A stretch of DNA of 52,938 nucleotides, taken from positions 1-52,938 of the forward strand of contig JAGAYI010000004.1 in the NCBI GenBank assembly GCA_017940545.1, written 5' to 3'. Positions 44,473-52,938 of this stretch are shown one piece after another. Numbering within the stretch: the stretch's first letter is position 1; the number at the start of each line of letters is the position of its first letter. The notes beneath the pieces were generated by a model. The model had not been told where the DNA came from and made no database searches. It was given only the letters and a program-made list of their open reading frames with translations. The position numbers and the translations under genes were made by a program. This stretch comes from Prevotella sp. (lineage in GTDB: Bacteria > Bacteroidota > Bacteroidia > Bacteroidales > Bacteroidaceae).

Positions 44473-46554
44473 TTAAACGGCATCAAAGGGGTGGTTACTC
44501 TCCACCAGGATGCGGGCATCCACTGCCACAATGTCGTCACCGTCGGCCAAGAGCGGGTTGATGTCCATCTCCTTGATTTCAGTGGCAAAGCGCAGCAGGG
44601 TAGAGAGACGCACAATAATCTCGGCATACTTTTTCTCGTTGATGCCTGCCTGTCCGCGGGTGCCCTTCAGAATCTTGTAGCCCCGCAGCGAGTGAATCAT
44701 GGAGTAGGCCTCGCCATAGCTCAGCGGTGCCAGTCCTGACTGCACGTCCTTCAGCACCTCGACGAAGATGCCGCCCAGTCCGCAGAGCACCACATGGCCG
44801 AAACGCTCCTCGTACTTTGCCCCGATAAACAGTTCGGTGCCGCGTAGCATCTTTTGTACCATGACGCCCTTGGCGTCGTCGATTTTCATCATGCGGTCAA
44901 ATTCCAGCGCCAGGTGTTCGGGGGTGCGGATGTTAAGCGTCACACCACCCACGTCGCTCTTGTGGACAGGTCCCACCACCTTTGCCACCACGGGGAATCC
45001 CACCTTCTGGGCGAAGGTGATAAGCTCTTCTTTCTGTTCGCTCACCAGCTCGGGAACCATGGGAATGCCGGCACAGGAGAGAATGGCCCGCACGGTCTGA
45101 GGCGGTACGTAACCGTTCTCCTTGATGCTCATGATAATCTTTTGGAGTTCGGGAATGTCGATGCCGTAGAGCTGCACTTCGGGCGGAGCGGGCATGGGTG
45201 TCCGCATGATTTGGCTGAGGGCCGTGGCCAGCGTCACCTCGTCGCTGAAGTTCACATGCCCCTTGGCCAGGAACTCCGCCACCTCGGGACCTGCGGTGTG
45301 CAGGCTGGGTAGGATGGGGAAGATGGGTTTCTTGCATTCCAATATTTTCTTGTGTAGCGTGTCGTAGGCTTCGTACAGCGTGGTGAGTCCCGGCGTGCCA
45401 TAGATGACGGCAATGGCATCGATGTTGTCAAACTTATGTTCGCAGTAGTCGATGGCGGTTCCCAACTGCTCGGCCGTACCTGTTGCCAGGATGTCGATGG
45501 GGTTGGCAACGGCTGATCCGGGGAAGAGCTGTTCCTTGAGTTCGTCCGCCAGCGTACCTTCTATCTTCGGTACGTTCAGCCCGCCCTTGCTGAGGGCGTC
45601 GGTGAGCATGACACCAGGACCGCCGGCATGGGTGACGATGGCGAAGTTGCGCCCTTTCAGGGGTGGCAAGGTGAAGATACAGCCCACGGTCGTCAGTTCC
45701 TCACGGGAGAAGCAGCGTACGATGCCTGCCTTGCGGAAGAGCGCCTCTACCGCCCCGTCCGACGAGGCAATGGCTCCTGTATGGCTGCTGGCGGCACGGC
45801 TGCCGCTCTCTGACGCGCCTGCCTTGATGGCAGCGATGCGACAACCCTTCTTGATGAGGTTGGAAGCATGGAACAGCAGTTTGTCGGGGTCGGAAATGTT
45901 CTCGATGTACAGCAGCTTCACCAGCGAGTCCTTCTCGGGGTCGAAGTGGTCGTCCATGTATTGCAGCACGTCCTCAATGCCTATCTGCTTGCCGTTGCCG
46001 ATGCTCCAGACGCTGTTGAACTGCAGCCCCTTGATGACGGCACTCTCCAGGATGAACACCGCCGTGGCACCAGAGCCTGAGATGAAGTCAACGCCCTTCG
46101 CGTCGAGTTTCGGGATAGGCTGTGTGAACACCGAGTGGTGTTGACGGTTCATCAGACCGATGCAGTTCGGACCAATAAGGGCGGCACCATACTGTTCGCA
46201 GGTGTCAAGGATGCGCTGCTCCAGTGCAGCGCCAGCCTTTGTCTCCTCGCCGAAGCCAGCCGAGATGATGATGAATGCCCGTACCCCCTTGTCGCGTGCC
46301 AGCAGTTCTGCCGTGTCGGGGCAGAACTTGGCAGGTATGACGAGGATTGCCAGTTCGGTAGGCGGCAGCTCCTTTATGTCGTGAAACACCTTGATGCCCT
46401 GAACTACGTCCTCTTTGGGGTTGACGATGCGTAGTGTGCCGTTATATCCGCCTTGCAGCAGGTTGCGTACAATGGCACCTCCAGGCTTGTGCTGATTGTT
46501 GGAACCGCCGACAATGACGATTGACTGCGGGTCGAGAAGTTCTTTGTTAATCAT
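44473..46554 (-). CDS. Acyl-CoA synthetase, NDP-forming (fused alpha and beta subunits)
   Basis: 693 residues from the ATG at 46554. The N-terminal CoA-binding domain reads SIVIVGGSNNQHKPGGAIV. The central succinyl-CoA-synthetase-like domains include GPNCIGLMN and SSHTGAIASSDG, the latter with the likely phospho-histidine. The C-terminal ATP-grasp domain has VGFPVVAKVVGPVHKSDVGG and LRGTELFIGAKYEERFG. It makes ATP or GTP from acetyl-CoA or another acyl-CoA while releasing the acid. I moved the start from 46602 because a -7 box lies at 46576-46583. Confidence 0.9.
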   Translation of the reverse strand: MINKELLDPQSIVIVGGSNNQHKPGGAIVRNLLQGGYNGTLRIVNPKEDVVQGIKVFHDIKELPPTELAILVIPAKFCPDTAELLARDKGVRAFIIISAGFGEETKAGAALEQRILDTCEQYGAALIGPNCIGLMNRQHHSVFTQPIPKLDAKGVDFISGSGATAVFILESAVIKGLQFNSVWSIGNGKQIGIEDVLQYMDDHFDPEKDSLVKLLYIENISDPDKLLFHASNLIKKGCRIAAIKAGASESGSRAASSHTGAIASSDGAVEALFRKAGIVRCFSREELTTVGCIFTLPPLKGRNFAIVTHAGGPGVMLTDALSKGGLNVPKIEGTLADELKEQLFPGSAVANPIDILATGTAEQLGTAIDYCEHKFDNIDAIAVIYGTPGLTTLYEAYDTLHKKILECKKPIFPILPSLHTAGPEVAEFLAKGHVNFSDEVTLATALSQIMRTPMPAPPEVQLYGIDIPELQKIIMSIKENGYVPPQTVRAILSCAGIPMVPELVSEQKEELITFAQKVGFPVVAKVVGPVHKSDVGGVTLNIRTPEHLALEFDRMMKIDDAKGVMVQKMLRGTELFIGAKYEERFGHVVLCGLGGIFVEVLKDVQSGLAPLSYGEAYSMIHSLRGYKILKGTRGQAGINEKKYAEIIVRLSTLLRFATEIKEMDINPLLADGDDIVAVDARILVESNHPFDAV

Positions 46555-46952
46555 AGACAGTATTCTATTTCCGTGCAAAAATACAAAATAATGCTGACAC
46601 ACGAAAGCGATTTTGGAAGATTAACGCAGTTCGCCCGATAAATAAAGGCAATTCGAGGAAAATTGGGGAAAGTCCGCAAAGTGCCACTAAGCAAATCGAG
46701 GCAGATTGCGGAATGAATTAGGTTTCCAATTCGGACTCGGCTTTGCCGCTTCGCTCGTCGAAGAACCCCCGATAGCCTTATATCGGATAGTTAAACTTTC
46801 TTAACGACCTGCGCAAATCAAGGCATTTCCCGGCAGTTCGAACCGTTTTCACATTTCGTGTTTTTCTTTCCTAAATCTGCCGTGATTTGCATGGCAATTT
46901 ATCCCCAGAATGGTATTACTTTTGCAGCCCGAATTTTAAAACGAATTAGAAG
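46555..46952 (+). other. Intergenic region ahead of the interrupted integrase gene
   Basis: No gene is seen. It contains hairpins CCGATA/TATCGG (about 46768-46785) and GTTAA/TTAAC, a copy of CTCGGCTTTGCCGCT at 46736-46750 that recurs at 52785-52799, and a -7-like box TACTTTTG at 46917-46924 in front of the integrase start. It is where an attachment site of the older element would be expected; I cannot identify one, and no tRNA gene is visible. Confidence 0.5.
46576..46583 (-). promoter_or_regulatory. -7 box deciding the start of the acyl-CoA synthetase gene
   Basis: On the minus strand TATTTTTG followed by CACGG, 22 bp upstream of the ATG at 46554 and inside the longer open frame. Confidence 0.55.
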
Positions 46953-47024
46953 ATGAGTAGAAGCACTTTTTCGGTATTGTTCTACGTGAACAAGGGTAAG
47001 GTCAAGAACGGCATCGTGCCAGTG
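46953..47024 (+). pseudogene. N-terminal part of an interrupted tyrosine integrase
   Basis: 24 codons beginning MSRSTFSVLFYVNKGKVK and ending NGIVPV. This is the arm-binding N-terminus of Bacteroidetes tyrosine recombinases of conjugative-transposon type. The rest resumes at 52614 with MGRITINGTQSQFSCK in the same frame once the intervening element is removed. The gene therefore served as target for the later serine-recombinase element. Confidence 0.85.
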
Positions 47025-47050
47025 ATAAAGAAACTTACCAAAAAATATAC
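47025..47050 (+). other. Left attachment site half (attL)
   Basis: Core AT (47025-47026) with an element-side arm ending AATATAC (47044-47050). The host side is the integrase sequence ending CCAGTG. Confidence 0.75.
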
Positions 47051-47069
47051 GGATATGAAAATTTATTTG

Positions 47070-47077
47070 TACCTTTG
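47070..47077 (+). promoter_or_regulatory. -7 box of the large serine recombinase gene
   Basis: TACCTTTG followed by CATC, 25 bp before the ATG at 47103 and only 45 bp from the left end. It lies inside the element, so expression does not depend on the host gene. Confidence 0.6.
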
Positions 47078-47102
47078 CATCTGGAACCAAATATAATGCC
47101 GT

Positions 47103-48704
47103 ATGTGTAAGAAATGTATCTGTCTAATTCGTGTGAGTACCCTTCAGCAAGATTTTGAAGCACAGAAAAAGGAGGTTGTCCGTGTTGCAAAGGCTGACGG
47201 GTACAAGGATAGTGAAATCGCCATTGTTGAGGGCAAGGAAAGTGCCATAAAACTAAAAGAGGAGCAGAGAGAGACCATTTCAGAAATGAAAGAAATCATA
47301 AATGAAAATCCTTCCATTGAAAGCGTTTATGTCTTCGCTGTTGACAGACTTGCAAGGCGTGTGTCTGTTGTTATTAGTGTAAAAGATTACCTTCTTGATA
47401 AAGGCATAAATCTTGTTTTTCTTAATCCGCACAAAATGGCCACAATGCGGAAAGATACAAAGACGGGGAAAATGGTCGAGGATGAATTAACCGCACTTGT
47501 TCTAATGTTCTTGGCTTATGGTGCAGAAATGGAAATGAAGTTAAAAAATATACGTTTTGAAGTAGCAAAATCCGCATTAAAAAGAAACGGGAAATTGTAT
47601 GGTGGGATTCCTTTGTATGGCTATGTCAAGGCTGAGGACAAATCCATTATTCCTGATGAAGATAATGGAACGGCAAATGTTGTCAGAAGGATTTTTACAG
47701 ATTACGTGAATAAGGAAAAATCACTAATTGTGATATTCAACGAACTTGTACAGGAGGGCATTTTTAAGAGTGCGAAGCCGGGTACAGGAAAGTGCAGAAT
47801 ACACAAAATAATCATCAATCCTGCATATAGCGGAAGGAAACCAATAAAAGGCGAAAACGTATATCCGGCTATTGTGTCAGAAGAATTGCAGGACGCCGCA
47901 ATAATCAAGTGCCACGATTCCCGAATGAAACCTAAAACAACACAGAAAACCGTATACTACGGGAAAGGCATTGTTAGGAATATGGCAACAGGTCACATAA
48001 TGACTGGTACCCGAAACATTATTGCATATCGAGATTTTGAAAGTCGGTTGGTTGTCAATGTAAATGTAATTGACAGCATACTTTGGTATGAGGCTGTCGA
48101 ACTAAAAAAGATAGACTTAGCATATCATTGGGAAGCCAATAAAAAAGGATATCAGTCTGAAATAGAAAAGAACAGCATAAAAATAGAAACGATAAATGGC
48201 CTGTTGTCAGAAATTAAGAGCCGGCAGTCACTCGCATTTAGGTTACTGATGCAGGGCAAGGTGAGTGAAGATGTATATGACGAACAGATGAAAGAAGTTG
48301 AGACTGATGCAAAGAAATGGGAAAAACAACTGGCCCAATTAAACTCTATCAATGAACAATATACTATGATGCTGAATAATATTCAAGAGACAAACTACAA
48401 TGATATATCAGTAAAAGACGTAACGGATGACGAAGAAAGAAAGAAGATAATCCAATCTGTTATTGAGGAGGTACAGGTTACACCTCTCTATGACAAAAAC
48501 AAGTCATTGAAGATACAGATAGTTAGAATTCCACTTTTGAAAAATCCACACGAAGATAGTGAGTATTACATCTATTGGGTACGTGGAGGGGTTGTACACT
48601 TAGAATGGCATCAGCCTTTGAAGGGGCGAATAGTAGATATAAGCCATTCCTATACAAAGAGACTGAAAAAGTACAAATATTCGCAAGGAATAGCGAAAAA
48701 ATGA
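47103..48704 (+). CDS. Large serine recombinase (integrase of the 5.6 kb element)
   Basis: 533 residues. The N-terminal resolvase domain has catalytic Ser12 in CLIRVST and the arginines of VDRLARR near residue 85. The recombinase domain follows (GKLYGGIPLYGYVK, VVRRIFTDYVN, INPAYSGRKPI). A coiled coil occupies about residues 340-425 (KNSIKIETINGLLSEI). The zinc-ribbon region of the family is degenerate: where GLLRCGxCG is usual it reads GIVRNMATGHIM and lacks Cys. It starts 78 bp from the left end, the usual place for such integrases beside their attP. It should cut at the AT core. Confidence 0.93.
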   Translation: MCKKCICLIRVSTLQQDFEAQKKEVVRVAKADGYKDSEIAIVEGKESAIKLKEEQRETISEMKEIINENPSIESVYVFAVDRLARRVSVVISVKDYLLDKGINLVFLNPHKMATMRKDTKTGKMVEDELTALVLMFLAYGAEMEMKLKNIRFEVAKSALKRNGKLYGGIPLYGYVKAEDKSIIPDEDNGTANVVRRIFTDYVNKEKSLIVIFNELVQEGIFKSAKPGTGKCRIHKIIINPAYSGRKPIKGENVYPAIVSEELQDAAIIKCHDSRMKPKTTQKTVYYGKGIVRNMATGHIMTGTRNIIAYRDFESRLVVNVNVIDSILWYEAVELKKIDLAYHWEANKKGYQSEIEKNSIKIETINGLLSEIKSRQSLAFRLLMQGKVSEDVYDEQMKEVETDAKKWEKQLAQLNSINEQYTMMLNNIQETNYNDISVKDVTDDEERKKIIQSVIEEVQVTPLYDKNKSLKIQIVRIPLLKNPHEDSEYYIYWVRGGVVHLEWHQPLKGRIVDISHSYTKRLKKYKYSQGIAKK

Positions 48705-48757
48705 GCCTCAACAAAAAACATTTTCTCAATTCTGAATAAGTTTGAGATATTTTTTAG

Positions 48758-48765
48758 TACCTTTG
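48758..48765 (+). promoter_or_regulatory. -7 box of the lipoprotein leader
   Basis: TACCTTTG followed by CATC, giving a start near 48772 and an untranslated leader of about 287 nt in front of the gene at 49059. TTTG at 48741 is only 13 bp upstream. Confidence 0.55.
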
Positions 48766-48771
48766 CATCGT

Positions 48772-49058
48772 CAAATTTAAAATGTCTGCCTATGATATAA
48801 AAAACAAATAAAGACAAATAGAAAAGATGCGTTAGCAAATATTCTTACTTCTGAAAATCGGGAAAATTTAAAGAAGCAGTCAAGAGTAGATGTTAATGCT
48901 CACGTCACGACGTGGGCTTTTAACTCGTATAAGACTGCAAGGTTTATTTCCCGATACCTCAGAAGTTTAGACGTAGCGACTGGTCCACGTTTTTCTTTTC
49001 TGTCTAACCTCAGCACCTGGGCCACTCTATTATTGCAATAATTAAAAATCGGGAAAAA
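48772..49058 (+). ncRNA. Structured leader with mutually exclusive pairings in front of a lipoprotein gene
   Basis: ACTTCTGA-AA-ATCGGGAAA (48847-48865) pairs with TTTCCCGAT...TCAGAAGT (48947-48966). The same TTTCCCGAT can instead pair with a second ATCGGGAAA at 49048-49056, two bases before the lipoprotein ATG. Between them is a tight hairpin GCTCACGTC/GACGTGGGC (48898-48917) followed by TTTT. The layout suggests a leader that either exposes or hides the start site. A 9-codon frame (MSAYDIKNK) at 48782-48811 could be a leader peptide. Function and trigger are unknown. Confidence 0.5.
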
Positions 49059-49466
49059 ATGAAATTATTTAAAGTAACTTTTATATTGTTGGCTATGATG
49101 GTTACGGCCATAACCTTCACAGCCTGTGGTAGTGATGACGATGAAGATAACATCGTTTCAAGTTCAGAATTAGTCGGTACGTGGGATATGCTTACTATTA
49201 CCTCCTATTACTCCGGGGAAAGTCCCGAAGTTGAGAATGTAAGTGATGCTTATTGGGTTTTTACTGCTGATAAATTAACCGTACACGACAAAACGGACTT
49301 AGCAAATGGAAAGAGTGTTAGTTATACCTATAACGGAAACTCTAAGGAACTAAGCATTATTGGCTATCCTCTATACACGGTAACAGAATTGTCTAAATCG
49401 ACATTGGTTATTCGCTCTGAAGAAATGTTTGGCAGTTATGAAGTTATTAAATTCAAAAAAAGATAA
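49059..49466 (+). CDS. Small lipocalin-like lipoprotein (element cargo)
   Basis: 135 residues. The lipobox is FTAC (Cys near residue 23) followed by GSDDDED, a typical surface-export signal in this phylum. The mature part (LVGTWDMLTITSYYSG, YWVFTADKLTVHD, KELSIIGYPLYTVTELSKST cut) fits the lipocalin-like lipoprotein families of Bacteroidales, with a GTW motif opening the barrel. It is preceded by the structured leader and followed 6 bp later by a second lipoprotein gene. Such cargo may alter the host surface; that is inference. Confidence 0.8.
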   Translation: MKLFKVTFILLAMMVTAITFTACGSDDDEDNIVSSSELVGTWDMLTITSYYSGESPEVENVSDAYWVFTADKLTVHDKTDLANGKSVSYTYNGNSKELSIIGYPLYTVTELSKSTLVIRSEEMFGSYEVIKFKKR

Positions 49467-49472
49467 CAAACA

Positions 49473-50333
49473 ATGAGACAAGTTAGAATAACCCTATATG
49501 CGATACTGACTTTCTGTTTGGTAGTCGTAATTCAAAGTTGTGCAAACGGCAATAAATCAGGAGCAGATGAAAATTCTGTTGAGGGTGCTAAAATGGAAAT
49601 TGTATTGTATAATGACGATACCGGCTCTATTTTAGACGAAAACAAACAAAGAATCTGCGGTTTTGAGTTATCGGGTGGACGTACTGGAACCATTACCGTC
49701 CGCACCTCTACAGACATAGATTTGTTTGGTACAAACACACATCGTTTCTATATTCAAGGTAACTATGTTTATGCCGAATATGGGGATGCTATTAGAGACC
49801 GAACGGAAAACGGAATTCCCGTCAAGAAAATAGAACAAGGTAGCGAGATTCATTTCTATCTTATTCCGGGTACTGACGTAGCAAATACACCGAAAGTAAC
49901 TGAAAAGAAAGAAGAAAGAAAAACGGAAACAACCGAGCGCGAAGTTACAACCTCTACTAACACTTGGACGGGGGCATCTTCTATGGACGAATTAAAGCAG
50001 AAACTTGATGGAACATATTGGCATTTGAACGACCGGGGAATGATGCGTAAATTTCATTTCGCAAATGGTGGCTTAACAATGTACAGCGGATTGGCTAATC
50101 GCGGGCAATGGACTGACCAACATTCCTATTCGTCTTATGATGTCAAAATGCACCGTGATACAGATGGAAACAATTTTGTTGCCGTCTCTTTTGGTGGTGA
50201 AGATGAAAAGATAGAACACCGGGGCTTTTCAATGGCATTTGCTAAAAAATGTATGATAGTTGTCTTATTCCAATTTGGAAATCCCGTAGGACAACTAAAG
50301 TATGGAGATTATAATTGGAGTGATGAACTATAA
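49473..50333 (+). CDS. Lipoprotein of unknown function (element cargo)
   Basis: 286 residues. The lipobox is VVIQSC near residue 23. Residues about 40-135 are strand-rich (MEIVLYNDDTGSI, GGRTGTITVRTSTDIDLFG, NYVYAEYGDAI). A charged Lys/Glu/Thr linker (about 140-170, KVTEKKEERKTETTEREVTT) joins a second domain (YWHLNDRGMMRKFHF, RGQWTDQHSYSSYDV, KKCMIVVLFQFG). It lies 6 bp after the lipocalin-like gene, so the pair is one transcript. I do not recognise either domain. Confidence 0.75.
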   Translation: MRQVRITLYAILTFCLVVVIQSCANGNKSGADENSVEGAKMEIVLYNDDTGSILDENKQRICGFELSGGRTGTITVRTSTDIDLFGTNTHRFYIQGNYVYAEYGDAIRDRTENGIPVKKIEQGSEIHFYLIPGTDVANTPKVTEKKEERKTETTEREVTTSTNTWTGASSMDELKQKLDGTYWHLNDRGMMRKFHFANGGLTMYSGLANRGQWTDQHSYSSYDVKMHRDTDGNNFVAVSFGGEDEKIEHRGFSMAFAKKCMIVVLFQFGNPVGQLKYGDYNWSDEL

Positions 50334-50342
50334 CGTTGAGAG

Positions 50343-50366
50343 GGGTTGCGATTGCAACCCTTCTTA
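50343..50366 (+). terminator. Intrinsic terminator of the lipoprotein pair
   Basis: GGGTTGC (50343-50349) and GCAACCC (50354-50360) form a perfect stem with a GATT loop, followed by TTCTT. It sits between convergent genes. Confidence 0.75.
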
Positions 50367-51026
50367 GTTATCCCTTGATATAAGCCTTTTCACGCTCTCT
50401 GCTGAATGACTTCCACCCCTTGAAGTCTTATAGCCGTGTTCGTTCAAATAACGTGCAATCTGCGAATAATTAGACCATCCCTCCTTCTGCAATTGCCGGA
50501 TGATTGCAAGGCTCTGAATGTTGTTTGTGTTTGTCTGGGCCTTCCGTTTAATAGTGGACGTAGCCTTTTCAATTTCTGCCGTTGTGAAAGTATGTGGATT
50601 GCCGAGGCTATACCCTTGGGCTTTCTTGGCAGCAAGGGCGGCTTTTGTGCGTTTGGAAATTAGGAGGCGTTCCTGCTCTGCGAGACCCGAATATATGGCA
50701 AGTGTTAGCACATCATTAACCATTGGCATATCGAGCGCACGAAACTTGATGCTGTTTTCACGCAAGGCGAAAATAAATGATACCTTACGACTGAGGCGGT
50801 CAAGTTTCGCAAGAAGCAATACCGCATTTTCGTGCTTACAGGCATAGAGTGCCTTCTCAAGTTCCGGTCGTGCATCGTTCTTACCGGATTCCTGCTCTTG
50901 ATATTCGGCTATCAGTTCAGCATCAGCCTCAGCCTTGATAAAATTGTGAACGGCCTCAGCCTGTGCCTCAAGTCCGAGATTCTGACGCTTGGTAGATGTG
51001 CGATAATATGCGATGTACTTTGTCAT
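50364..51026 (-). CDS. Small serine recombinase (resolvase/invertase type)
   Basis: 220 residues. The catalytic domain has Ser11 in YYRTSTKRQ, the conserved LLLAKLDRLSRKVSF stretch and the EQERLLISKRTKAAL helix. The C-terminal part (about 150-220) contains a helix-turn-helix region (WSNYSQIARYLNEHGYKT). It resembles Pin/Hin-type enzymes. It could be a resolvase, an inversion enzyme for cargo promoters or an excision partner of the large recombinase. No inverted crossover sites are evident around the cargo. It is divergent from the Rep-like gene and has its own promoter at 51055-51062. Confidence 0.9.
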   Translation of the reverse strand: MTKYIAYYRTSTKRQNLGLEAQAEAVHNFIKAEADAELIAEYQEQESGKNDARPELEKALYACKHENAVLLLAKLDRLSRKVSFIFALRENSIKFRALDMPMVNDVLTLAIYSGLAEQERLLISKRTKAALAAKKAQGYSLGNPHTFTTAEIEKATSTIKRKAQTNTNNIQSLAIIRQLQKEGWSNYSQIARYLNEHGYKTSRGGSHSAESVKRLISRDN

Positions 51027-51054
51027 AACTTTAAACTAATTGATTTTTCTGATG

Positions 51055-51062
51055 CAAAGGTA
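51055..51062 (-). promoter_or_regulatory. -7 box of the small serine recombinase gene
   Basis: On the minus strand TACCTTTG followed by CATC, 29 bp upstream of the ATG at 51026. Confidence 0.6.
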
Positions 51063-51244
51063 CGAATAAAATTTGATTTCACAAAACCTAAACGTTCATT
51101 TAATATTTGTGAAGCGTATTTTTAACATTATTTATACCCCATCCCCTTAAACATATGTGATAGAAAATTCATAAATGGCTTGAATAACCTACTAACCTCT
51201 GCTATTTATAATGTAAAAGGGTATATTAGCCCTGTATTAATATA

Positions 51245-52090
51245 ATGACAAATATAAAATACAGATTTAGGATTGACCGCTTAGAGGTCAGTTACACAGC
51301 ATCGGAGGACATACTTGAGTCGCTGTCAGAATTGGCAGAAGGTTGTTTCGGAGAAGAATATCAAGATAACGTAAAACTTGTTAGGGTAGATAGCCGGAAC
51401 TATAAGAATGAATTTGAGGTGTACACCATTAGCGAAACCGGATGGAAGGCTTATGGACTTTTGCAGTTTGGAAGTCCTAACCCACATCGCCAATATGTAT
51501 ATCTGTCTGTCTTGAATGAAAGGTTATATGACGGTGGGCTGCACCTGCTGATGTACGTTGAAAGCGTGTTGCATCTATCGTTTCTAAGGGTGTCGAAACT
51601 TGATATTGCCTTAGATGCTAATTGGAACTTGGTACGCTGTTTTTATCGGCTATGGCGAAATCCTGATTATGCTTTTGTACTCCTGGGCCATCGTACCATT
51701 GAGGGTATAACAGAGAATGTAAGTGAAATGATACACATTAGTACAGGAACACGAAAAAACATTAGCAAAAACCGCTCTTTCAGCCTTTCTAACAGCGAAA
51801 ACAGCCTCAGCCTTACAGGATATAACAAAAGCAACGAAATTGTAGCGACAATGAAAAAGTACATAGCAGATGCTACGGAGTTTAAGAAGATTTACCGGCT
51901 TGAAGTACGAATGTCAAGTTACAAGGAGATTAGAAAAACACTTGGTACATTGCCGATGAATGATGAAGAACTATATTGCAGGCTGACAGATGAAAATACA
52001 TTGTTGATGCTGTTTGTCACTTGCTTGTCCCGATTGATAAGAGTTAAGCAAGGGCGCAAGGCTTATGGTTTGTTGGAGTGTTTGATATAA
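51245..52090 (+). CDS. Rep-like protein (replication initiation factor family, tentative)
   Basis: 281 residues, soluble. The central part has LQFGSPNPHRQYVYLSVLN and the motif VSKLDIALDANWN, like the RxDIALD strand of Rep_trans/rolling-circle initiators and of the RstA-type replication factors of filamentous phages. IYRLEVRMSSYKEIR resembles the following conserved glutamate strand. A catalytic tyrosine cannot be assigned with certainty (YRLE, YGLLE and others are candidates). If real, it would let the excised circle replicate. It lies between the two-recombinase block and the NUMOD3-like gene. Confidence 0.55.
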   Translation: MTNIKYRFRIDRLEVSYTASEDILESLSELAEGCFGEEYQDNVKLVRVDSRNYKNEFEVYTISETGWKAYGLLQFGSPNPHRQYVYLSVLNERLYDGGLHLLMYVESVLHLSFLRVSKLDIALDANWNLVRCFYRLWRNPDYAFVLLGHRTIEGITENVSEMIHISTGTRKNISKNRSFSLSNSENSLSLTGYNKSNEIVATMKKYIADATEFKKIYRLEVRMSSYKEIRKTLGTLPMNDEELYCRLTDENTLLMLFVTCLSRLIRVKQGRKAYGLLECLI

Positions 52091-52124
52091 AAGTCAAGTT
52101 GAAAGCAAAAGAATTGATACTACT

Positions 52125-52150
52125 TCCCCCTTGAACGGGGGATTTTCTTT
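52125..52150 (+). terminator. Intrinsic terminator of the Rep-like gene
   Basis: TCCCCC (52125-52130) and GGGGGA (52137-52142) form a short GC stem around TTGAAC, followed by TTTTCTTTT. Confidence 0.7.
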
Positions 52151-52177
52151 TCCTGCCCTGCATTTTCAGTCTATTGG

Positions 52178-52360
52178 TTAATTGGCTGAGGCTGCCCGTT
52201 TTTTTGCATAATACTCTTTTAGAGACTTTGAAATCTTCTCCTTTGTCTCGTCGCTAACCGGGTGGTTTTGCATAGACCTGCTAATGTGCCATTTGTGGGT
52301 GGCTGTTTTGTTCCGGTGTAGGAGCCTCATTGATATTCTCCGCTTAGTGTCACTATTCAT
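52178..52360 (-). CDS. Small basic protein with NUMOD3-like DNA-binding motif
   Basis: 60 residues with many Lys, Arg and His. The stretch HISRSMQNHPVSDETKEKIS followed by KSLKEYYAKK matches the NUMOD3 modular DNA-binding motif of homing endonucleases (pattern SEETKxKIS). No nuclease domain is attached. A small stand-alone DNA-binding protein near the end of an integrative element could be an excision factor or a control protein. It is on the minus strand, with no promoter recognised. The size makes the call uncertain. Confidence 0.55.
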   Translation of the reverse strand: MNSDTKRRISMRLLHRNKTATHKWHISRSMQNHPVSDETKEKISKSLKEYYAKKRAASAN

Positions 52361-52613
52361 TACAGAAATTGTTATATCTATAAATATGGCAGTAACAGGA
52401 TAGTAAGTCCATGTTTGGCAGAAAATTTTTGCCGGAAAAAATCCGGAGCAATCCGTGTTATAGTATTTAGGTTAGGAGGCTCACGTACTCAATCTGAGAG
52501 CGAGAATACCTTGGTAGCCAATTAGATACATCTGATATGATATTAAAAATGCTACTGAAAGTTATAATATGAGCAAAGGGAAATAAGCCGTATATTAAAA
52601 AGTTGAGTTTATT
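52361..52613 (+). other. Right end of the serine-recombinase element, non-coding
   Basis: No convincing gene. It holds GGCAGAAAATTTTTGCC (about 52419-52435), a short hairpin that could be an origin feature next to the Rep-like gene, and the right att arm at 52590-52613. Confidence 0.45.
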
Positions 52614-52615
52614 AT
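52590..52615 (+). other. Right attachment site half (attR)
   Basis: The element arm starts GTATATT (52590-52596) and ends in the core AT (52614-52615), which is also the AT of the resumed integrase codon ATG. Confidence 0.75.
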
Positions 52616-52782
52616 GGGCAGAATCACCATCAACGGAACTCAAAGCCAGTTCAGTTGCAAGCGGAGCATCCCACTGTCGTTGTTGGACGCGAAGGGCCAC
52701 TCGAACTTGTTCGCTTTGCCAAGCAAAGAACTGTGCCAAGGGCAGAAGCAGGGAGGCTCTTAATCTGAACCGTGACCTAGAC
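52614..52782 (+). pseudogene. Continuation of the interrupted tyrosine integrase, further broken
   Basis: ATG GGC AGA continues the integrase as MGRITINGTQSQFSCKRSIP and SLLDAKG. After that a 31-bp insertion (about 52642... ending before AACTGTGCC near 52729) shifts the frame. The next family block, AKGRSREALNLNRDLD, is then read in another frame. It stops at about 52782, where a copy of CTCGGCTTTGCCGCT begins. The remainder of the integrase is not in the window, so the older element cannot be mobilised by this gene. Confidence 0.8.
52736..52750 (+). other. Conserved integrase block in a shifted frame
   Basis: The codons around this position read AKGRSREAL in the frame that starts AAC TGT GCC. 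This matches the integrase block usually seen as NRAKGKSxEAL and locates the 31-bp frame-shifting insertion just before it. Confidence 0.5.
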
Positions 52783-52784
52783 CG

Positions 52785-52799
52785 CTCGGCTTTGCCGCT
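52785..52799 (+). repeat. CTCGGCTTTGCCGCT repeat, right copy
   Basis: Identical over 15 bases to 46736-46750. The core CGGC/GCCG can form a tiny hairpin. It interrupts the integrase remnant right after the DLD codons. Confidence 0.65.
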
Positions 52800-52801
52800 C
52801 T

Positions 52802-52809
52802 TACCTTTG
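52802..52809 (+). promoter_or_regulatory. -7 box near the right edge of the window
   Basis: TACCTTTG followed by CATCGG. A hairpin CGATGTT/ACATCG follows. The gene or RNA it serves is beyond the window or not recognised. Confidence 0.45.
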
Positions 52810-52938
52810 CATCGGATTATAGATAATGTTCTAAATGTCCGATGTTAAACATCGTATAATTTTTAGTTCATGCGGCAACAATTTTGTAGTTTTGCTAAAG
52901 ATTGTGGCCGTGGAGGGTAAGATAATTTGCCGCTAGGT

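Follow-up and report, generated by a model that had tools for sequence, protein, structure and literature searches.

How did an element with a large serine recombinase come to lie inside a tyrosine-integrase gene of Prevotella, and was that gene attacked as a rival's? Both questions are raised by a 52,938-base stretch (the window), which is one whole contig (C65) of a 2.22 Mb draft genome. The original prediction was that one integrative element had targeted the integrase gene of another and so disarmed its competitor. We found the insertion to be precise, and we hold with good confidence that a plasmid-like element was integrated site-specifically, by its large serine recombinase, between codons 24 and 25. 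The disarming does not follow from the evidence.

A precise insertion and its attachment sites

The split gene and the element are laid out as follows.

46953–47024, + strand: codons 1–24 of the target tyrosine integrase (B side of attL)
47025–52613, + strand: serine-recombinase element, 5,589 bp including one copy of the AT core, delimited by junction analysis and by read-through in 29 of 29 homologous loci
52614–52782, + strand: target integrase resumed (B side of attR); beyond 52782, at about codon 70, the DNA is no longer homologous to other integrases

The left flank ends with ...NGIVPV and the right flank restarts with MGRITINGT from 52614, so that the gene is split between codons 24 and 25. 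The only bases common to both junctions are AT, at 47025–47026 and 52614–52615, and joining the flanks restores the frame, giving 73 codons in frame. Junction analysis thus confirmed the position, the AT-only junction and the in-frame rejoining that had been predicted.

The empty site was sought by searching the joined 67-aa integrase text in 150 genomes of the genus and fetching the 30 best loci (L003–L032), of which one (L006) is the window itself. In all 29 others codons 20–29 are free of gaps, with a stop inside them in L015, and a DNA alignment of nine of the 29 shows neither insertion nor deletion at the junction. Several of these loci are gene fragments or end at contig edges, so they show an uninterrupted site and not 29 working genes. 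Homologues were expected to read through the joined sequence if the gene had been split by insertion, and all 29 do; the uninterrupted attB therefore exists in related genomes, where the original prediction had proposed to look for it.

The recombinase gene and the two halves of attP lie at the ends of the element.

47103–48704, + strand: large serine recombinase, presumed integrase, 533 aa (PF00239 and PF07508 above cut-off; phrog_95)
47025–47052, + strand: right half of attP, the AT core and an arm ending AATATACGG at +18 to +26
52588–52613, + strand: left half of attP, an arm with CCGTATATT at −26 to −18

The recombinase has the N-terminal resolvase catalytic domain (PF00239, 61.2 bits against a cut-off of 23.3) and the Recombinase domain (PF07508, 31 bits against 21.1), and its match to the phrog_95 integrases spans residues 3–504, which covers the long C-terminal part expected of the family. 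The start of the recombinase gene is 78 bp from the left end of the element. When the element is circularised, its ends form perfect 9-bp arms, CCGTATATT and AATATACGG, exactly 18–26 bp on each side of AT, and this block is the longest symmetric run among all 5,589 positions of the circle. The dyad had been predicted as 50 bp long, with 7 matching bases (GTATATT) at its outer edges; it is real and symmetric about AT, but measures 54 bp with 9 matching bases, and it is only partly perfect, with pairing at 15 of 27 positions (p = 0.0045 by arm shuffling). The corresponding figures for attB, attL and attR are 6, 5 and 7 of 27. The overlap between attP and attB is the short core only, and the attP dyad is centred there, as is expected of a large serine integrase. 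With the recombinase domains, the dyadic attP and the uninterrupted attB in homologues all found, this anatomy fits ordinary attP × attB integration, and the predicted site-specific integration is very likely.

The AT core is its own reverse complement, a feature that had been missed. The orientation of Bxb1 integration is set solely by the central dinucleotide, according to the title of a reference cited in PMC3783163. Applied to a palindromic core, this rule predicts that the element would insert in either orientation.

Integration may be pictured as follows. A small integrative plasmid-like element would enter the cell as a circle, and the 533-aa recombinase would pair the circle's 54-bp attP, whose arms flank AT, with an attB in the integrase gene, the conserved arm-domain codons NGIVPV/MGRITINGT. 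Strand exchange at AT would then leave attL and attR, with nothing lost or duplicated except the two-base core. The circle would probably replicate by means of its Rep-like gene, and its small serine recombinase would resolve multimers.

Several observations weigh against this account or parts of it. The recombinase lacks the paired zinc-ribbon cysteines at the aligned place; among five distant relatives (23–29% identity in the alignment) they are kept in four (L047, L049, L050 and L051) and largely absent from L048. The zinc ribbon is not known to be a strict requirement for large serine integrases, and for this reason we retained the family assignment. The non-palindromic, orientation-fixing core that is usual for large serine integrases is absent, and a palindromic core is unusual among them, the usual kind being common and not defining. 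Unlike the 9-bp block, the total symmetry of attP is unexceptional (rank 13 of 5,589). The recombinase is known from a single insertion, and no close relative of it was found. The 5′ part of the integrase family takes other, unrelated small inserts too. Finally, the genome is a 70.5% complete draft, in which, taken without its reads, a chimeric join is possible.

Relatives and further insertions were sought in several collections. No close relative of the 533-aa recombinase was found in viral_contigs or genome_contigs, and the plasmid and phage collections gave only distant ones (three records at 23–26% identity and two records at 25%, respectively). In sampled genomes, the samples overlapping one another, the recombinase was matched in 2 of 301 from the family, own genome included, and in 1 of 393 from the order, which is the own genome (both at E <= 1e-20), and in 5 of 398 from the genus, own genome included (E <= 1e-12). 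A second insertion at codon 24/25 was found neither by protein nor by junction pattern in the collections and samples searched, and the whole element had no megablast match in plasmids. The pattern search is weak negative evidence, being narrow and exact (an exact pattern excluding an intact ATG). It returned 27 stretches in genome_contigs and three in viral_contigs, and none of the 30 contained the recombinase or matched the integrase N-terminus significantly (best E 0.11); the sole Bacteroides match (L152) is another kind of gene. Searches for tRNAs in the window and for Rfam families in 46000–52938 gave no match.

The surroundings of two distant relatives count in favour of site-specific integration. 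That in L051 begins about 130 bases past a truncated Mg-chelatase/YifB-like gene (profile positions 1–88 of 207) and that in L050 adjoins a half-length DUF554 gene (positions 1–110 of 220). Two of the five relatives thus adjoin truncated genes, of kinds other than integrases.

The target integrase and its other lesions

In a full-length homologue of the target (L114) the arm-binding, SAM-like and catalytic domains of an integrase all score above cut-off. The N-terminus of the target was matched in 57 of 150 genomes of the genus, own genome included, with up to 18 matches in one genome. Five features of the target and its surroundings are needed here.

46573–46952, + strand: leader of the target integrase module, conserved in related genomes, where its neighbouring genes differ (alignment A4 and DNA search)
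46736–46766, + strand: 31-bp double-hairpin repeat in the leader, absent from three homologous leaders
52698–52728, + strand: 31-bp double-hairpin insert that frameshifts the integrase
52785–52799, + strand: exact 15-base copy of the first half of the repeat at 46736, truncated by the sequence that follows it
52798–52938, + strand: probable IS110-family leader, found in two places in the own draft; it ends the contig

Leader and gene recur together beside different genes in the window and in two related genomes (G692:C3 and G693:C1), these neighbours being told apart by reading of open reading frames and not by family search; in G692:C97 the leader occurs alone, at a contig end, without the gene. 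This recurrence implies that the target module is mobile, or formerly was. The original description of the target as the integrase of a mobile element is supported to that extent; no element of its own could be delimited around it.

The integrase is damaged further downstream of the junction, which the original prediction had overlooked. Besides the frameshifting insert at 52698, the sequence from 52798 matches the end of contig C19 (G000:C19:1-150) at 99% identity. Over 124 bases it also has 85% identity to a stretch of genome G703 that precedes a DEDD_Tnp_IS110 gene by about 200 bp. An IS110-family element most likely ended the contig here, its gene lying outside the window. We had suspected a deletion of the 3′ part of the integrase; instead the probable IS110-family leader begins at that place and the contig ends. 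The remaining integrase may lie beyond the IS110-family element, and no adjoining part was found in the own draft genome. Contig C55 of this draft holds a further decayed piece of an integrase of this family (L134:4844-4969), whose leader looks similar by eye. It was considered as the missing part and rejected, being another decayed copy with no IS110-type gene among the open reading frames listed around it.

Ten further loci with partial N-terminal matches, outside the 29-locus count, were fetched, and integrases broken near codons 13–25 were considered as possible further copies of the element. This was rejected, as none of the ten loci shows the element. Six of them (L033–L038) hold other small inserts near codons 13–19, which are hairpin segments of about 38–43 bp, so the 5′ region of the family is interrupted elsewhere also, by other things. 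Four of these loci (L035–L038; G765, G716 twice and G778) share a repeat of about 38 bp with the hairpin GAGAC-TGAGT-GTCTC at the same place in four integrase genes; it occurs also at G778:C77, G778:C126 and G724:C27, and a paired variant, GAGAT-TGAGT-ATCTC, elsewhere. In L033 and L034 (G724 and G749) roughly codons 14–23 are replaced by a hairpin segment of another kind, about 42 bp long.

The two double-hairpin copies of the window, at 46736 and 52698, follow one plan: CT, a hairpin, a second hairpin that starts with CTT and ends with AAG, and AAC. A rule derived from them found 10 distinct sequences in 747,523 bases and none in the same DNA read backwards; this set is biased, since many of its loci overlap and several were fetched by searching for the repeats. 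Two variants (L037:3385 and L041:4431) lie in loci that had been collected for unrelated reasons. Substitutions are paired in the first stem (CGGC/GCCG, CGAAC/GTTCG and CGACC/GGTCG) and in the second (CTTTGC/GCAAAG, CTTCG/CGAAG and CTTGG/CCAAG). One variant was present in five of seven genomes searched, at seven places in total, with no match to the reversed pattern; in viral_contigs one variant had two matches and the other none. Folding as single-stranded DNA is modest, as 9 and 5 of 200 shuffles equalled or beat the two window copies. Insert-free homologues exist for both copies, and these sequences of about 31 bp are possibly mobile. Nothing of this kind was found in the literature searched, a weak negative. 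The family ranges from 31 to 33 bp, with other copies at, for example, L116:2362, L117:1962 and L118:2754. For the 15-base half repeat at 52785, 0.2 matches are expected by chance at up to two mismatches, and the probable IS110-family leader seems to be inserted at the central CT of a double-hairpin repeat.

The idea that the element disarms a rival by a targeting strategy is not supported by these results. The integrase bears at least two further lesions, the insertion is seen once and no second was found; disarming cannot be inferred, because the other lesions may be older or younger than the element. The target family is abundant, multicopy and often decayed, which probably makes it a landing site that is both frequent and dispensable; the gene at this place was also hit by repeat and probable IS110 insertions.

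An evolved targeting, in which the recombinase was selected to attack the integrases of other elements, either to disarm them or to use them as a landing pad that they themselves spread, would be compatible with site-specific integration as set out above. Two points favour it: the integrase family is abundant and the coding motif that holds the site is strongly conserved in it, and in streptococci serine-integrase elements occupy genes of conjugative elements in 12 of 16 cases (PMC5357655). Set against this are the single case, the other inserts in the target, which may be older or younger than the element, and the fact that, of the five recombinase relatives, the two whose sites were resolved lie in other kinds of gene. 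On balance we regard such selection as rather unlikely. It is also unlikely, and we put it forward as a speculation, that the serine integrase evolved to recognise the arm-domain codons of the abundant tyrosine recombinases of its host genus, which would serve as portable, self-spreading landing pads, with the palindromic AT permitting either orientation.

A probable plasmid-like backbone

The remaining genes of the element are as follows.

49059–49466, + strand: cargo, weakly lipocalin-like lipoprotein, 135 aa (sub-threshold family matches only)
49473–50333, + strand: cargo, probable lipoprotein, 286 aa (N-terminus read by eye)
50364–51026, − strand: small serine recombinase, 220 aa, like plasmid 'recombinase family' proteins
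51245–52090, + strand: Rep-like protein, 281 aa, with relatives of 26–33% identity in small elements of the same genus
52178–52360, − strand: NUMOD3-like protein, 60 aa; in related elements a homologue lies next to the Rep-like gene and on the same strand as it

The presence of a second serine recombinase raises the alternative that the 220-aa protein moved the element, by IS607-like or resolvase-type transposition, with the large recombinase as a passenger. A match to IS607 may be counted in its favour, though it is far under the cut-off (24.8 against 110 bits). The 220-aa protein resembles plasmid recombinases, however, with matches in 1,941 plasmid records, in 486 of which the match covers 80% or more of the protein; identity is 46–49% in the 12 best plasmid rows, which come from genera that we take to be Bacteroidota. 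Since, moreover, the dyadic attP adjoins the gene of the large recombinase, this alternative is very improbable. Twelve relatives of the small recombinase occur in viral contigs, and the five inspected look, by reading, like ordinary phage contigs. Scarcely credible is an assembly artefact that joined unrelated pieces inside repeated integrase sequence: the assembly is an incomplete draft, and a repeat terminates the contig no more than 325 bp downstream, but both junctions fit one two-base crossover and the ends form a symmetric site centred on it.

The Rep-like protein was found in 9 of 249 genomes of the genus, own genome included. It had no match in plasmids, phages, viral_contigs or the Protein Data Bank (PDB) by phmmer, and only insignificant Pfam, PHROG and profile/PDB matches. 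It presumably resembles Rep_trans motifs, and from this likeness it may be a rolling-circle initiator or a relaxase; as to the latter, Pfam, PHROG and PDB gave no significant match for this protein. The 135-aa lipoprotein resembles Lipocalin_8 and BSAP-5i immunity proteins, in both cases below threshold, and the 286-aa protein has no Pfam or NCBIfam match and one weak phrog match of unknown function.

Longer stretches around eight other Rep-like loci (L073–L080) were examined, with families assigned by Pfam in L079 and L073 only and the others read from their N-termini. In five of the eight (L074, L075, L076, L077 and L079) the Rep-like gene is accompanied by a small serine recombinase, a helix-turn-helix gene, cargo and a serine recombinase of 505–555 aa. 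L073 has instead a tyrosine-integrase-type gene, whose arm and SAM-like domains score above cut-off and whose catalytic domain scores below it; contig ends truncate L078 and L080. The window's NUMOD3-like protein is related to the one in L077 (E 3e-6), although the latter lies on the other side of the Rep-like gene and on the other strand. These elements share with the window the Rep-like gene, usually the NUMOD3-like gene, the small serine recombinase and cargo, but differ in their integrases: that of L079 has no detectable relatedness to the window's recombinase (best E 0.027), nor has its small recombinase to the window's, and that of L073 is of the tyrosine type. A backbone common to small elements of the genus thus seems to have had its integration module swapped.

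Comparison with known systems

In streptococci, 12 of 16 serine-integrase integrative and mobilizable elements (IMEs) lie inside the traG, maff2 or snf2 genes of integrative and conjugative elements (PMC5357655; review PMC5704250). Like the element described here, they have one large serine integrase and a very short core, and they are inserted precisely within a gene of another mobile element. Some carry Rep-type relaxases (PMC5357655, PMC5704250), whereas here no relaxase is recognised, the target is a tyrosine integrase and no conjugative host element is delimited.

Among large serine recombinase clusters, 82.8–88.3% are predicted to be rather site-specific, and competence genes are enriched among their targets (Durrant et al. 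2022, PMC10083194). Those integrases likewise use a gene-interrupting attB and a dinucleotide core; the present one differs in its palindromic AT core and in having no close relative in the collections searched. Helper-embedded phage-inducible chromosomal islands are also inserted in genes of another mobile element (PMC10111431). They differ in their late-gene targets in prophages, in a repeated tropism (mapped on 491 additional cases, 14 sites) and in using tyrosine integrases, as we conclude from the Phage_integrase profile used in that study. A transposon interrupting an integrase gene has one mention in Streptomyces (PMC9513070).

A serine-integrase element targeting a tyrosine-integrase gene was not found in the literature searched, most subscription journals lying outside its scope. 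Serine-integrase elements inside the genes of other mobile elements have thus already been published, and the tyrosine-integrase target is new to the literature searched. To these known systems the present locus adds a sharply mapped large serine integrase with both attP and attB, together with tyrosine integrases as a class of target. If the insertion proves recurrent, it would represent one mobile element using the integrase of another as its address.

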